From a virus: a DNA stretch of 37,128 nucleotides. The translations under genes were made by a program, and so were the position numbers. The first letter of the stretch is position 1, and each line of letters opens with the position of its first letter. The stretch spans positions 1-37,128 of the IMG/VR virus record IMGVR_UViG_3300030107_004578, one strand, 5' to 3'. The notes beneath the pieces were generated by a model, which saw only the letters and a list, made by a program, of their open reading frames with translations, was not told where the DNA came from and did no database searches. Positions 437-6,788 of this stretch are shown piece by piece.

Positions 437-949
437 ATGTTATGGGAAGGTATGCGATCAGTAGGAAGGCCGTCCCGATTTACTCCTGAGCTTGTAGGTA
501 ATATACTTACTTATATACGTGATCACCATTGTAGCCTGTCGGATGCAGCAGCGAGGAGTGGTATCTCCGGGTCTATAGTATCTGTGTGGATGAACTCTGC
601 TGACAGCAAGTACCGTGGGTTTCAGCGGATGATAAGGGCGGCTTTAGCTGAACAGAAGGCTATACTTACTGAGAGTGTTTATAAGCACGCAAGGGAAGAC
701 GGACATCTTGCTTTGAAAGCCTTGCAGAGCCGGTTCCCGGCTGAGTGGGCATCCCACCGTATTCCCCAGAGTCAGAAGGTATTGAACATAGACAACCGTA
801 CTGTTAATGTAAAGGTGTTAAACGAGGGAGTCAGGAGGAAGATACTTGAGTTTATCAGAGCAAGCGAAGGAACTGTTGAACCTGTACAAGTCGGATCCGA
901 TGCTGGTGGATCGGGCGATGTACGCAGTGAAGTTGGGGATAACTCCTGA
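437..949 (+). CDS. terS: Terminase small subunit
   Basis: A protein of about 170 aa that would recognise the packaging site and recruit the large subunit. An N-terminal helix-turn-helix-like segment (roughly residues 8-55, beginning GRPSRFTPEL) is typical of small terminases, followed by an alpha-helical middle and an acidic, glycine-rich tail. An ATG at 452, matching the beginning of the conserved part, is an alternative to ATG 437; neither has an ideally spaced ribosome site. The 3' end overlaps the proposed terL ATPase gene by 104 bases. Its position next to terL and immediately after the AT-rich array fits a packaging-site-binding role. Family assignment rests on the HTH start and context rather than a diagnostic motif. 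Confidence 0.8.
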   Translation: MLWEGMRSVGRPSRFTPELVGNILTYIRDHHCSLSDAAARSGISGSIVSVWMNSADSKYRGFQRMIRAALAEQKAILTESVYKHAREDGHLALKALQSRFPAEWASHRIPQSQKVLNIDNRTVNVKVLNEGVRRKILEFIRASEGTVEPVQVGSDAGGSGDVRSEVGDNS

Positions 950-1664
950 CGAAACGCAGACAGCGTTGCTTGACAGTGACCACCGCAGGGTAATAGTAAA
1001 CGCAACCCGGCAATGGGGAAAGGATACGATAACCAGTATAATAGCCCTGCACACAGCTAAATACTTTCCACAATCTTTAACTTTAATTTTATCCCCGGCA
1101 CAACGGCAGTCACAGGAACAGTTAAGAACTATAAAAAGATTTAAAAGTCAGGATGAAGAGATTAACTTTACCAATGCTGATTCACAAACAGTATTGGAAT
1201 TAACCAACGGATCACGTATAATATCAGTCCCGGCAGGGGATAATATCCGTGGTTTTGCAGCACCCGATATGATTATCATGAACGAGGCCAGTAGGATAGC
1301 GGATGATGTCCTTACGGTAGTACGTCCGATGATGGCGACTAATTCAGCCTGTAGGCTGTTTTATATTTCTACCCCCTATGGTAAGCGAGGCTTCTTCTGG
1401 CGAACATGGGAAGATAAGAAAGGAGGATGGTATAAGCTGGGAGTAACAGCTACCCAGTGTGCGAGGATAAGTGAGGAGTTCCTGCGTGAGGAGTTGTATA
1501 CCCTGCCTGAGTTGTTATACCGACAGGAGTATATGTGTGAATTTGTAGACAGTGTGTCACAATACTTTAACAGTGAGGACATTATGGATGCGATAGGAGC
1601 AGTTAAAACATTAGGCACATCCTACGTAGCGAGGGATGAAAGTGTTAAACCATTATTTACTTAG
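846..1664 (+). CDS. terL: Terminase large subunit, ATPase half (split gene)
   Basis: The 272-aa protein contains only the ATPase half of a large terminase, the motor that pumps DNA into the prohead. The Walker A-like segment is ATRQWGKDT (about residues 53-61). The Walker B-like segment is DMIIMNEAS (about 141-149), with Asn where the usual Asp precedes the catalytic Glu. The coupling motif is STPYGKRGFF (about 175-184). The TTG start at 846 is favoured by AGGAGG seven bases upstream; ATG 900 is an alternative. The frame ends in TAG just where intact TerL proteins pass into the nuclease domain. That domain follows as a separate gene at 1991, after a 104-codon insert. The two halves probably assemble in trans. 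Confidence 0.9.
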   Translation: MSLSEQAKELLNLYKSDPMLVDRAMYAVKLGITPDETQTALLDSDHRRVIVNATRQWGKDTITSIIALHTAKYFPQSLTLILSPAQRQSQEQLRTIKRFKSQDEEINFTNADSQTVLELTNGSRIISVPAGDNIRGFAAPDMIIMNEASRIADDVLTVVRPMMATNSACRLFYISTPYGKRGFFWRTWEDKKGGWYKLGVTATQCARISEEFLREELYTLPELLYRQEYMCEFVDSVSQYFNSEDIMDAIGAVKTLGTSYVARDESVKPLFT

Positions 1665-1675
1665 GGGATATATAC

Positions 1676-1990
1676 GTGGATAACCATCCGCTACCACAGG
1701 AACAACGACAGGATGTAGAAGGGGATGCATCGGCATTTCCTAACTTAGTAGAAAAAGTATTGGGAGAAGAAAGTATGAGTGATTTAGAAGCAAGAGTAGA
1801 GGCATTAGAGAAAAAAGTGGCAGATCTTGCCCCTAAGAACCCGGACAACTACCCTTTTGAAAGGGACTGTAACCGTGGTTGCGGTAAGAAGGTGTGGGTA
1901 CAATACTCAAGAAACAAACAGAAAGAGTACCAGACCAACAGTGATAACTATAAAGACTTCCACAATTGTGGAGATGCTATACCCTTTTAA
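1676..1990 (+). CDS. Small coiled-coil / Cys protein inserted in the split terL
   Basis: I do not recognise this gene. It encodes 104 aa from GTG 1676, preceded by AGGGG, or 71 aa from ATG 1775, which has an even better GGGAGAAG site; both products may be made. From the internal start the protein opens with a leucine-heptad helix (LEARVEALEKKVADL). It then has a compact domain with Cys-x3-Cys and a later HNC, which could bind zinc. It sits exactly between the terminase ATPase and nuclease genes. Its stop abuts the nuclease ATG as TAAATG, so translation is probably coupled. It might help the halves associate, but that is conjecture. Confidence 0.7.
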   Translation: MDNHPLPQEQRQDVEGDASAFPNLVEKVLGEESMSDLEARVEALEKKVADLAPKNPDNYPFERDCNRGCGKKVWVQYSRNKQKEYQTNSDNYKDFHNCGDAIPF

Positions 1991-2701
1991 ATGGAACGGT
2001 TTATTATAGGGGTTGACCTTGGGCAGTCGTCTGACTATACAGCCATATCTGTTTTAGAACGTGTCCCCCGGTTTAAGGAAGATAAGTCAGCCCCTATTAA
2101 CTACCCTGCCCCGATAACTACCTGTGAATACCACCTGCGTTGGCTGGAACGAATACGACACCAGTCCTATGTCGAGGTGGTAGAGAAAATAAAACGTGTT
2201 ATCCTGCATGAGGAAGTACTGGACGAGTCTGTTATGTTAGTGGACTCTACCGGGGTAGGCAGGGGGGTAATGGATATCATGATACAGGAACGTATGCGTC
2301 CTATAGGTATAACCATTCATGCCGGGCATAGGGTATCCGAGTACGATGGTGGCTTTAACATCCCCAAACGTGACCTTGTCGGCTCACTACAGGTGTTATT
2401 CCAGACAGGCAGGATAAAAATACCACAGGAAATAAAACTGATAGACGAATTAGTAGCTGAATTACAAAACTTCAGGGTTAAAATCAAGGATAGTGGGCAT
2501 GATACCTACGAAGCATGGAGAGAAAGTGACCATGATGACCTTGTATTAAGCCTTGCTATGGCATCTTGGTACGCAGGAAGGACAGAAGAATCATTTTTAG
2601 CCTTGCATAAAAAGCAAAAATATACAATACAAAAGAAGTATAACCCATTCTCCACGAAGGAAGTAAAAAAAGTGGTAGAGGGAGGGATGTATGCCAACTA
2701 A
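1991..2701 (+). CDS. terL: Terminase large subunit, nuclease half (split gene)
   Basis: The 236-aa protein is an RNase H-fold terminase nuclease domain, which cuts concatemeric DNA at the start and end of packaging. The three acidic motifs are visible: IGVDLGQSSDYTAI (Asp9), VMLVDSTGVGRG (Asp85) and ESDHDDLVLSLAMA (Asp180, Asp182, Asp183). It starts where an intact TerL would continue, directly after a linker like the one ending the ATPase gene, and it lacks any ATPase motif. Its ATG follows the previous TAA with no gap, and its 3' end overlaps the next small gene by 11 bases. Confidence 0.9.
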   Translation: MERFIIGVDLGQSSDYTAISVLERVPRFKEDKSAPINYPAPITTCEYHLRWLERIRHQSYVEVVEKIKRVILHEEVLDESVMLVDSTGVGRGVMDIMIQERMRPIGITIHAGHRVSEYDGGFNIPKRDLVGSLQVLFQTGRIKIPQEIKLIDELVAELQNFRVKIKDSGHDTYEAWRESDHDDLVLSLAMASWYAGRTEESFLALHKKQKYTIQKKYNPFSTKEVKKVVEGGMYAN

Positions 2702-2867: not shown

Positions 2868-4595
2868 ATGCCAAGCAACCCGGATCTAGCTAAGTATATA
2901 AAGAAACGTCTGGCTTTTTTAAAGGATCAGCGTAAGCCGTGGGAAGATGAGTGGGATACCTTATCCGAACTCATCATGCCTACCAGAAGGTTTGACTCCA
3001 ACTACCCTGAGAACAATATGACTGACAGGGGAGATGACATAGGATCGGATATACATTCAAGCTATGCTATGTATGCCAACCGTCTTATGGCTGACGGCTT
3101 CCTTGGACAGATAGTATCTCCGGGTAATCCGTGGTTTAAATCCTTTATCGACCGTACTCCTGAGATGATAGCCGAGGGATTTTATCCTAATGAGCTACAA
3201 CCGATACGGTTATGGCTGGATGAACGTGATGCTATAGTCTATTCAGAACTGGAACGGTCTAACTATTACAGTGAGATGCATATGGCTTTTATGGATGCCG
3301 GATGGTGTGGCACTGTAGTACAAACGGTAGAGGAAGATATAGATAATTCAGTACTTAACTTTCAAACCCAACATATCATGGAGTATTATATCCGTGAGAA
3401 TGCACATGGTAACGTAGATACGGCTTACCGGGTATACAAAGTCAGTGCAAGGGAGATGTTTAAGCGTTGGAACTATGCAGACCTCTCTAAGGCAGTACAA
3501 AAGGCTATAGACGAAGAAGAATGGGATAAAACTTTTACTATTATCCACGCAATAGAGCCAAGAGAGCAGGTAGCAGGACTGCCAGTACGTAAAGAAACAG
3601 CGGTAGACAAGATAAACAAACCTTACTCCTCTATTTATATGGAACCGGATTCACAAGACAGTGTTTTGGAGATAAGTGGCAGGGATGCACCCCCGGTTGT
3701 CTGGCGATGGGTAACTATGGCAGGTGAACACTACGGTAGAGGCCCGGCAAGTTGGGCAAAGAACGATATTAAGGCTCTTAATAACATGACACGGGATATG
3801 TTGGTACGTTCACAGAAAGAAGTAGACCCACCTATGCTCGTAGATGATAGTTTTTATGGAAACTTCTCTACTAATCCGGGTGTTATTAACTATTTTAACG
3901 GTATGTCTACTAAAAGAGTAGCTGAACCTGTACCTTTATCTGGTAATTACTCCATAGCAGGGGAAGAACGCAGACAAAAGATGGACATTATCAGTAAGCA
4001 TTTTCATAATGACTTCTTTGCTATCCTGCAATCTATGGAACAGGGACGAAAAACTGCTGAAGAGGTAAGGGCAATACAAAATGAACAGGCTATTCTGTTA
4101 GCACCTATCACTGGCAGACTGGAACAGGACTTTCTGGACGGTCAGTTAGACCGGGTGATAAACATATTGCAAAATGCAGACAAGTTGCCACCAGTACCTG
4201 AAGAGTTGAAAGACTGGGAGGGAACACCTATGCGAATGAACTACTTAGGTGCTTTACCACAACTACAAAGACGTATGCGTCTTACTTCGGGACTCGGTGC
4301 TTTTAAATCATCACTGGCTAACGTAGCACAGCTACAGCAGATGGCAGCACAAGCACAAGAATCTGTTATGCAGAACTTTGATTTCGATGAAATAATAAGA
4401 ATGGAAGCAGATGCTTACAATCTCCCGGCTAAAGCAAGCAGACCAAGAGCTATAGTCCAGGAAGAAAGAGTAGCGAGACAACAAATGTTAATAGAGCAAC
4501 AGGCTATGGCTCAGGCAAGGGAAGCAGCAAGTGCCCATAAGGATCTTTCTGTAGCCCCTGAAGAAGGGTCACCGGCCGAGGCTCTAGAAGGATAA
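2868..4595 (+). CDS. Portal / head-tail connector protein
   Basis: The 575-aa protein has the size and features of the podovirus head-tail connector, the dodecameric ring at the capsid vertex through which DNA passes and to which tail proteins attach. The N-terminus (about residues 1-60) has the typical helix followed by PWEDEWDTLSELIMPT, as in T7 gp8-like connectors. The C-terminal part is helical and Gln/Ala-rich (about 480-575), as expected of the crown. The gene follows terL and precedes a Bbp19-like gene and the scaffold, which is the standard order. Its start is coupled to the preceding stop (TAAATG); no strong ribosome site is visible. Confidence 0.93.
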   Translation: MPSNPDLAKYIKKRLAFLKDQRKPWEDEWDTLSELIMPTRRFDSNYPENNMTDRGDDIGSDIHSSYAMYANRLMADGFLGQIVSPGNPWFKSFIDRTPEMIAEGFYPNELQPIRLWLDERDAIVYSELERSNYYSEMHMAFMDAGWCGTVVQTVEEDIDNSVLNFQTQHIMEYYIRENAHGNVDTAYRVYKVSAREMFKRWNYADLSKAVQKAIDEEEWDKTFTIIHAIEPREQVAGLPVRKETAVDKINKPYSSIYMEPDSQDSVLEISGRDAPPVVWRWVTMAGEHYGRGPASWAKNDIKALNNMTRDMLVRSQKEVDPPMLVDDSFYGNFSTNPGVINYFNGMSTKRVAEPVPLSGNYSIAGEERRQKMDIISKHFHNDFFAILQSMEQGRKTAEEVRAIQNEQAILLAPITGRLEQDFLDGQLDRVINILQNADKLPPVPEELKDWEGTPMRMNYLGALPQLQRRMRLTSGLGAFKSSLANVAQLQQMAAQAQESVMQNFDFDEIIRMEADAYNLPAKASRPRAIVQEERVARQQMLIEQQAMAQAREAASAHKDLSVAPEEGSPAEALEG

Positions 4596-4600
4596 TATGA

Positions 4601-4912
4601 TTGGAGTCATTTCATAACAGGGCAGTAGAAGACCCGAAACGACAACAGGTTGCCTTACCAGACGAAATACATAGATATTATCGTCATACCTTTTGCAGGG
4701 ACGATACCACTCTTAGCGTACTTGGAGACATAGTGCATAATGAGTTGGGCTTGTTTGCTACAGACGGTAACACGGTAGAGGACTTGATAGAGTTAAATGC
4801 AGCAAGAAGGATCATGGCTAAGTTCGGTGGGTGGGGAAGGTCTGATATGGTAGATACCATAATACAGGCACTCTCAAACCTAAACGTGCCACAAAGGAGT
4901 CAGGATGTCTGA
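4601..4912 (+). CDS. Bbp19-like phage protein
   Basis: A 103-aa protein from a TTG at 4601, with AAGGA upstream and no in-frame ATG near the N-terminus. The pattern YRHTFCRDDTTLSVLGDIVHN followed by a GNTVEDLIELNAARR segment and I-x6-L resembles the small Bbp19 family found beside portal and scaffold genes in BPP-1-like podoviruses. The function of that family is not well defined. Position between portal and scaffold agrees with the assignment. It overlaps the scaffold start by eight bases. Confidence 0.6.
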   Translation: MESFHNRAVEDPKRQQVALPDEIHRYYRHTFCRDDTTLSVLGDIVHNELGLFATDGNTVEDLIELNAARRIMAKFGGWGRSDMVDTIIQALSNLNVPQRSQDV

Positions 4913-5694: not shown

Positions 5695-5980
5695 AATAGT
5701 CCACTGAGCCGGGTTGTGGTCTACGTTTAAAAAGAGATCTGGACTTAGGCTCAATCATTTCTACATCAAGATCCTTATATACTTGTATATGCTTTTCTTT
5801 GTAGTGGCGAAAACATAACAACTGGTTATCATCTTTAACTATACCGTACATATCGCAACCTTCGTGACTGCAAAATTCTACCCCACCTGCACAATGTAAT
5901 TTGTTTTTTATTCGATACTCCACGTTTGGTCTAGTTCCTCTTTCTGCTTTTTTCGTTATAATCTTGGTATTATATATCAT
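5693..5980 (-). CDS. Small Cys/His protein downstream of the methyltransferase
   Basis: The 95-aa product starts with a lysine-rich stretch and has a small Cys/His-rich core: LHCAGG, FCSHEGCDMYG, then LLCFRHYKEKH (residues about 29-65). The spacing could form one zinc site. A basic, proline-containing tail follows. I do not recognise a family. Its ATG overlaps the end of the methyltransferase by 11 bases, so it is the last gene of the leftward cassette. It may modulate the methyltransferase or bind DNA, but this is inferred only from position. Confidence 0.65.
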   Translation of the reverse strand: MIYNTKIITKKAERGTRPNVEYRIKNKLHCAGGVEFCSHEGCDMYGIVKDDNQLLCFRHYKEKHIQVYKDLDVEMIEPKSRSLFKRRPQPGSVDY

Positions 5981-6788
5981 AATTCTCCCTGTGTATTTTT
6001 GCTATTGCTTCCAGTATTGGAAAAACCTGTTGTGGGACAACTGCATTTCCTAATGCTCTAAGTCTGTGAACCCGGTTTTGAACCCCATGAGCCACTCGAC
6101 CCACGTTGGGTTCAGTGTCCCACGTTTCCATTCTTCCGGGGTAGTACCCCTTATCTCCGGGTGATTGCCTAACATGGCTTGCATTTTCCCTGTTGGAAGT
6201 CCTGCGTGAGCCTCGGTTGCCGAAGGAGTCGGCCATAGCTTTACTGCTGTTGGCAAGTCTCTTTCCGTCCCCTTTAGACTGCGACCTGAACTTCCCTTGT
6301 AATCTCTCGCTTGCGGAGTAGGCCACAATGAATACTCTTGCCCTTTGATGCCACGCACCGATGGCGACAGCTGGTATATTGAAACATTGGACTTCGTAGT
6401 CTTCACTTTCCAGATTAGATAACGTGCGGTCGACCCCCAAATTGACGAAGTTAGCAACATTCTCACCAAGCACCCAAGTCGGCCTGACTTCCTGCACGAT
6501 TCTAAACATTTCCGGCCAGAGGTCACGGTCATCTGAGAACGCCTTTCTTTTTCCTGCTCCGCTGTATGGTTGGCAAGGAAAACCCCCTGACAAAAGGTCA
6601 ATTGTCCCTCGGTATTTTCTTCCATTCAAGCTCCTTATATCGGTACATCTTTCTACATTAGGCCAGTGCTTTTCAAGAACTTTTAAACAGTAGGGGTCAT
6701 TTTCAACTTGTAATAGCGTATTAAACCCTGCCCACTCACTGGCTAAGTCTATACCACCAATCCCGGTAAACAGGCTTATATGGTTCAT
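5970..6788 (-). CDS. DNA cytosine-5 methyltransferase
   Basis: The 272-aa protein transfers a methyl group from S-adenosylmethionine to C5 of cytosine. Motif I is SLFTGIGGIDLA (about residues 5-16). Motif IV is GGFPCQPYSGAGKR with the catalytic Cys72. Motif VI is ENVANF (about 109-114). Motif VIII is HQRARVFIVAYS, and the C-terminal motifs are RVHRLRALGNAVVPQQ. It is slightly short for the family and has a low-complexity recognition region. No restriction enzyme is nearby, so it is an orphan, probably protecting against host restriction. Its ATG directly follows the upstream gene's stop (TAAATG). A second open frame with its own ribosome site lies inside it at 6050-6625. Confidence 0.93.
   Translation of the reverse strand: MNHISLFTGIGGIDLASEWAGFNTLLQVENDPYCLKVLEKHWPNVERCTDIRSLNGRKYRGTIDLLSGGFPCQPYSGAGKRKAFSDDRDLWPEMFRIVQEVRPTWVLGENVANFVNLGVDRTLSNLESEDYEVQCFNIPAVAIGAWHQRARVFIVAYSASERLQGKFRSQSKGDGKRLANSSKAMADSFGNRGSRRTSNRENASHVRQSPGDKGYYPGRMETWDTEPNVGRVAHGVQNRVHRLRALGNAVVPQQVFPILEAIAKIHRENYDI
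6050..6625 (-). CDS. Alternate-frame protein nested inside the methyltransferase gene
   Basis: A 191-codon frame, shifted +1 relative to the methyltransferase, opens at an ATG preceded five bases upstream by AAGGAG lying within the methyltransferase codons. Its product shows motifs I have seen in phage proteins annotated near methylases: two LWPTP segments (one LWPTPQARDYKG), LIWKVKTTKSN, and a C-terminal NPTWVEWLMGFKTGFTDLE. That last motif is encoded by the same bases as GRVAHGVQNRV of the methyltransferase. The start site and motif content argue that it is translated. Its function is unknown; it could be a relic frame retained by constraint on the methyltransferase. Confidence 0.6.
   Translation of the reverse strand: MEENTEGQLTFCQGVFLANHTAEQEKERRSQMTVTSGRKCLESCRKSGRLGCLVRMLLTSSIWGSTARYLIWKVKTTKSNVSIYQLSPSVRGIKGQEYSLWPTPQARDYKGSSGRSLKGTERDLPTAVKLWPTPSATEAHAGLPTGKMQAMLGNHPEIRGTTPEEWKRGTLNPTWVEWLMGFKTGFTDLEH

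Follow-up and report, generated by a model that had tools for sequence, protein, structure and literature searches.

A probable two-subunit large terminase, with ATPase and nuclease encoded by separate genes, in an IMG/VR virus and its relatives

The window analysed here is the whole 37,128-base stretch of IMG/VR virus record IMGVR_UViG_3300030107_004578 (positions 1 to 37,128). Between a small terminase (TerS) gene and a portal gene, the position of a large terminase (TerL) gene, it carries two genes that code separately for an ATPase and a nuclease, together with a third, small gene. The features of the locus are the following:

437 to 949, plus strand: small terminase (TerS) gene; phrog_4102 (1.4e-10); overlaps the start of the ATPase gene; dN/dS 0.2-0.4
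846 to 1664, plus strand: putative TerL ATPase subunit, 272 aa; TTG start; Terminase_6N and phrog_7579; AF2 model
1008 to 1028, plus strand: Walker A motif RQWGKDT, with Asp (codon 1023-1025) at the usual Ser/Thr position
1269 to 1286, plus strand: Walker B motif MIIMNE, with Asn (codon 1281-1283) at the usual Asp position and the catalytic Glu kept
1676 to 1990, plus strand: middle gene (MID), 104 aa; GTG start; homologs in three close relatives
1991 to 2701, plus strand: putative TerL nuclease subunit, 236 aa; phrog_27743 (1.7e-44); AF2 model
2015 to 2539, plus strand: codons of the nuclease catalytic Asp residues D9 (2015-2017), D85 (2243-2245) and D183 (2537-2539), from alignment with G20c
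2868 to 4595, plus strand: portal (head-tail connector) gene; PF12236 (4e-105)

In tailed phages the TerL motor and nuclease are normally parts of one protein, and TerL serves as a universal single-chain marker. At this locus the two domains are found in separate frames with their own stop codons, so the pair is better described as a two-subunit variant than as an ordinary TerL. A scan of the window for promoters and terminators gave no clear excess over shuffled sequence. Elsewhere in the window, a 191-aa ORF (6050-6625, minus strand) is nested in another frame of the same strand within a DNA methyltransferase gene (5970-6788), possibly by chance.

The TTG start of the ATPase gene at 846 lies 7 nt after an AGGAGG (833-838), and its product matches Terminase_6N (6e-7) and phrog_7579 (2e-44). 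AF2 models of the ATPase and the nuclease were built from alignments of 69-70 relatives. Residues 14-236 of the ATPase model (pLDDT 90.6) superpose on residues 2-255 of P74-26 TerL (4znl; Z 26.3, rmsd 2.0, 214 residues aligned). R55, G58, K59, E147, T176 and P177, representing the P-loop Arg, the GK pair, the catalytic Glu and the TP motif, are invariant in the 69 ATPase sequences. The nuclease gene starts with an ATG directly 3' of the middle-gene TAA, forming a TAAATG junction; its product matches phrog_27743 (about 2e-44) and also Terminase_6C, the latter at 1e-3, which is below the Terminase_6C cut-off. In its model (pLDDT 84.8), residue 1 corresponds to residue 286 of G20c TerL (5m1o; Z 17.1, rmsd 2.4, 157 residues aligned), and D9, D85 and D183 align with G20c D294, D347 and D429, the three acidic residues of the RNase H fold, which mutation has shown to be indispensable in G20c. 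A gene now filed as 'hypothetical protein' or 'unknown function' would thereby gain a function. Measured against three close relatives, dN/dS is 0.035-0.047 for the ATPase gene and 0.053-0.087 for the nuclease gene, comparable to the 0.05-0.06 of the portal gene.

The ATPase match ends at P74-26 residue 255 and the nuclease match begins at G20c residue 286, so the break falls within the inter-domain linker (256-285). The ATPase tail is 36 residues, the size of a linker, and neither domain loses any part. A first-pass annotation of this DNA had confined the motor to 846-1664 and the nuclease to 1991-2701, with the cut near the domain boundary; these frames are exact, and the models now place the cut in the linker itself. 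It had also described a separate frame between the halves with its own ribosome site, and indeed the ORF at 1676-1990 begins with a GTG behind AGGGGA, just as the ATPase gene is preceded by AGGAGG. The three-gene order was sought in related contigs and recurs in IMG/VR 3300030392, 3300032820 and 3300030329, whose ATPases are 93-99% and nucleases about 94% identical to those of the window. That the split is an assembly error is excluded by its presence in three independent assemblies and on finished plasmids, while dN/dS values of about 0.04-0.09 for the ATPase and nuclease genes argue against a decaying gene.

About 280 loci were gathered from virus and genome collections by profile searches, and their six-frame ORFs were scored. 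The ATPase and the nuclease lie in separate frames at 148 non-identical loci and in one frame at 35, counts that are biased by the use of split members as queries and do not express prevalence; L261, L265, L045 and L014 possibly contain sequencing frameshifts. With 148 such loci, in related viral and prophage sequences, the uniqueness of the split implied by the first-pass annotation does not hold. Record titles of the split loci include Methanothrix, Methanoperedens, Acidobacteriota, Chloroflexota, Bradyrhizobium, Sinorhizobium, Lysobacter, Luteibacter and others. No split members of the window's own clade were found among 50,697 sequenced phage records at the sensitivity used. The pair is also present on two finished plasmids of Salinibacter ruber isolates, pSR14 and pSR31, where it is annotated as 'terminase family protein' and 'hypothetical protein'. 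These plasmids (L267 is pSR14, 14.9 kb with a primase-helicase, and L268 is pSR31) place a split terL on small replicons, possibly phage satellites or plasmid prophages.

The nuclease start lies within 20 nt of the ATPase stop in 88 of the 138 loci with a measurable start, and the commonest spacings among the 138 are a 4-nt overlap (ATGA; 42 loci) and a 1-nt overlap (TAATG; 12 loci). Stop/start overlaps of 1-4 nt are the usual signature of coupled translation. Other arrangements occur as well: 2-kb gene insertions separate the halves in L012 and L013, at least one gene lies between them in L055, L059, L126, L222 and L247, and L231 (5992-7926), alone among the split loci, has its nuclease gene first. 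The reversed order in L231 and the insertions in L012 and L013 rule out a fused product at those loci. Pairwise distances among ATPases and among nucleases are correlated (r 0.69, n=100, 0 of 2000 permutations), which is expected for partner proteins but may also arise from shared phylogeny alone. In L266, whose sister is a split locus, an ATPase and a nuclease of the split type are naturally fused. That the split arose only once is not favoured, as a quick tree with long branches needs 7 changes between the split and fused states and the AU test is mildly against one clade (p 0.03). Ten loci (L008, L138, L196, L202, L203, L207, L209, L212, L237 and L268) have 2-4 tandem stand-alone nuclease genes behind one ATPase gene. 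The Asp triads of these copies are mostly intact, the first Asp being missing from a few (copy 2 of L138, copy 1 of L196), which suggests that mixed nuclease complexes may form.

A broken gene can also be repaired after transcription or translation. In the Jug phages, terL is interrupted by group I introns, and splicing, seen in RNA reads, restores one chain (PMC12363816); in cyanophage Mic1, TerL contains inteins and one chain is restored by protein splicing (PMC7156551). The window, by comparison, encodes two final proteins. The Jug precedent makes it conceivable that the window has one terL gene with a mobile group I or II intron that is removed from the RNA, the middle ORF lying inside the intron, but this is hardly credible here. 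A stop codon closes the ATPase frame and the nuclease has its own ATG; the 1-4 nt gene overlaps in many relatives leave no room for an intron; and the middle ORF, besides being under selection, does not encode a homing endonuclease. Rfam searches found no intron in the window at the gathering score, none relevant at the break with E-values up to 10, and none in six relatives. Thus neither of the two findings that the first-pass annotation regarded as fatal to a split, a spliced intron or an uninterrupted terL, turned up: there is no Rfam intron, and relatives have no continuous TerL at the locus. Nor did a Pfam domain search reveal an intein or homing domain in the ORFs at 846-1664, 1676-1990 and 1991-2701. 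Intein-like inserts do exist in the surveyed loci L170 (2549-5728) and L176 (2222-4747), both with LAGLIDADG_3 and L170 also with Intein_splicing; they lie within the ATPase domain, elsewhere than the ATPase-nuclease break, the nuclease being separate, and the insert is an intein in L170 and probably also in L176.

The middle protein has no match in Pfam or PHROGs, and its homologs were found only in the three close relatives of the window. Its N-terminus (QRQDVEGDASAF) and its C-terminus, which bears C65, C69, H96 and C98, are conserved around a variable, coiled-coil-like centre; the Cys/His pattern makes a zinc-binding accessory protein possible. The first-pass annotation proposed it as a third motor subunit made in equal amounts with the other two, and a stoichiometric complex of ATPase, nuclease and middle Cys protein would fit its retention in all three close relatives, the conserved Cys/His residues, a dN/dS of 0.08-0.22 and the TAAATG junction with the nuclease gene, which is present in the window and in L007. 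We nevertheless consider such a complex improbable. No copy of the gene turned up elsewhere in the split family, where the halves abut directly or have unrelated genes between them, and although selected it diverges faster than both of its would-be partners: the protein is 51-59% identical to those of two close relatives whose ATPase and nuclease are 93-94% identical. Nor is equal synthesis of the three proteins borne out: in L005 and L006 a further small gene of the phrog_13182 family intervenes between the middle and nuclease genes and the TAAATG junction is lost. Small genes seem to collect at this site, and the middle gene is best read as a passenger or accessory of one lineage rather than a core subunit. 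In L005, a 183-aa ORF that is absent from the window lies between the nuclease and portal genes (4093-4644). The middle and nuclease ORFs of the window share one frame with a single TAA between them, a detail that, like the unusual GKD/NE site of the ATPase, escaped the first-pass annotation, and readthrough of this TAA (1676-2701) would give a fused protein of about 341 residues.

We consider it very likely that these genes encode a genuine two-subunit large terminase, in which the ATPase and the nuclease would act in trans as a non-covalent complex. This reading rests on the completeness, conservation and selection of both domains, the cut in the linker, the wide distribution of the layout with its gene overlaps, the correlated divergence and the natural fusion. 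Neighbouring genes would yield an ATPase subunit that ends in what was once the linker, and a nuclease subunit; the two products would meet on the portal as a non-covalent complex, in which the ATPase ring would pump DNA and the nuclease would cut when packaging begins and when it ends. That the halves bind each other and form a single motor is an inference. Association in trans, as the first-pass annotation recognized, is needed if they cooperate; the third subunit of that proposal is not supported.

Against the two-subunit reading stands the behaviour of T4, in which the covalent hinge is essential: once separated, the domains stay active but no longer translocate DNA (PMC9958956). Either the subunits of these viruses hold together strongly without a covalent link, or the nuclease is no more than a recruited cutter. 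The latter variant, with the ATPase alone as the translocase and the nuclease no part of the moving motor, appears somewhat unlikely but deserves to be taken seriously. It would accommodate the 2-4 tandem nuclease genes per ATPase gene at some loci, the variable spacing and the reversed order. It would also fit the unequal divergence between the window and L007 (ATPase dS 0.18 versus nuclease dS 0.42; Fisher p 7e-4), a sign of separate exchange of the two genes and compatible with loosely coupled modules. In T4, however, the translocation groove is thought to lie on the nuclease domain (PMC9958956). A two-subunit terminase challenges the idea that the two halves of TerL must be physically joined to work, and a large natural family without the hinge makes it testable whether the nuclease has a role in pumping or in cutting alone.

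The single-chain TerL proteins of the Thermus phages P74-26/G20c and of T4 (gp17), with Terminase_6N and Terminase_6C, share with the window the same two folds, the nuclease motifs and a neighbourhood of TerS before and portal after; the window differs in having the chain cut in the linker into two genes and, in its clade, in the Walker A Asp and Walker B Asn. Among sequenced phages, the ATPase is closest, at 39-43% identity, to the TerL proteins of Thermus phage Riverbug and Meiothermus phage MMP17 (PQ109080, MH939157), which unlike that of the window are single chains of 415-417 aa. The same halves already exist in PHROGs as separate, unlinked families, 7579 (ATPase, 239 positions) and 27743 (nuclease, 233 positions, of unknown function), and in RefSeq as the separate proteins of Salinibacter pSR14 and pSR31, whose annotation does not link them as one TerL. 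The literature searched, mostly papers outside subscription, yielded no report of a TerL with its ATPase and nuclease as separate final proteins. In annotation lists for actinophages the two TerL domains go by different names, and scattered cases may have been seen. Marker searches that demand a full-length TerL will miss or mis-score viruses with the split form.

In P-loop enzymes, the Walker A Ser/Thr and the Walker B Asp hold the same Mg ion. Among 204 aligned ATPases, Walker A reads GKS or GKT in 193 and GKD in 4, namely the window and its three close relatives; Walker B reads DE in 193, and NE is confined to the same 4 that have GKD. The canonical metal site is thus absent from the window clade; the claim of TerL homology rests on the folds. 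Since both positions hold the same Mg, the GKD/NE pair looks like a carboxylate shifted between the motifs. Judging from these alignments, the metal-binding carboxylate seems to have been relocated from Walker B to Walker A in this clade, under strong purifying selection; being confined to one clade, the pair represents at most one evolutionary event.

A change of both Mg-site residues could also mean that the ATPase has lost hydrolysis and that packaging is driven by something else, and in T4 packaging is abolished even when Asp and Glu are swapped for each other in the catalytic motifs of this site (PMC9958956). This is very doubtful in view of the ATPase dN/dS (0.04-0.05) and of the way the two changes co-occur, which leaves one carboxylate near the metal site, with the other motifs kept. 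Moreover, no second TerL-like ATPase was found in the window. We tentatively propose, with chances a little short of even, that this clade has a motor that both lacks a covalent tie between engine and cutter and has its Mg carboxylate moved from Walker B to Walker A (GKD/NE), in which case the hinge and the canonical metal ligands, both regarded as essential from work on T4, would be dispensable. The GKD/NE pair offers a natural test of how P-loop motors bind their metal. The ATPase gene further stands out as a recombination patch between the window and L007: its product has 98.9% protein identity, and TerS, the middle protein, the nuclease and the portal are clearly more diverged.
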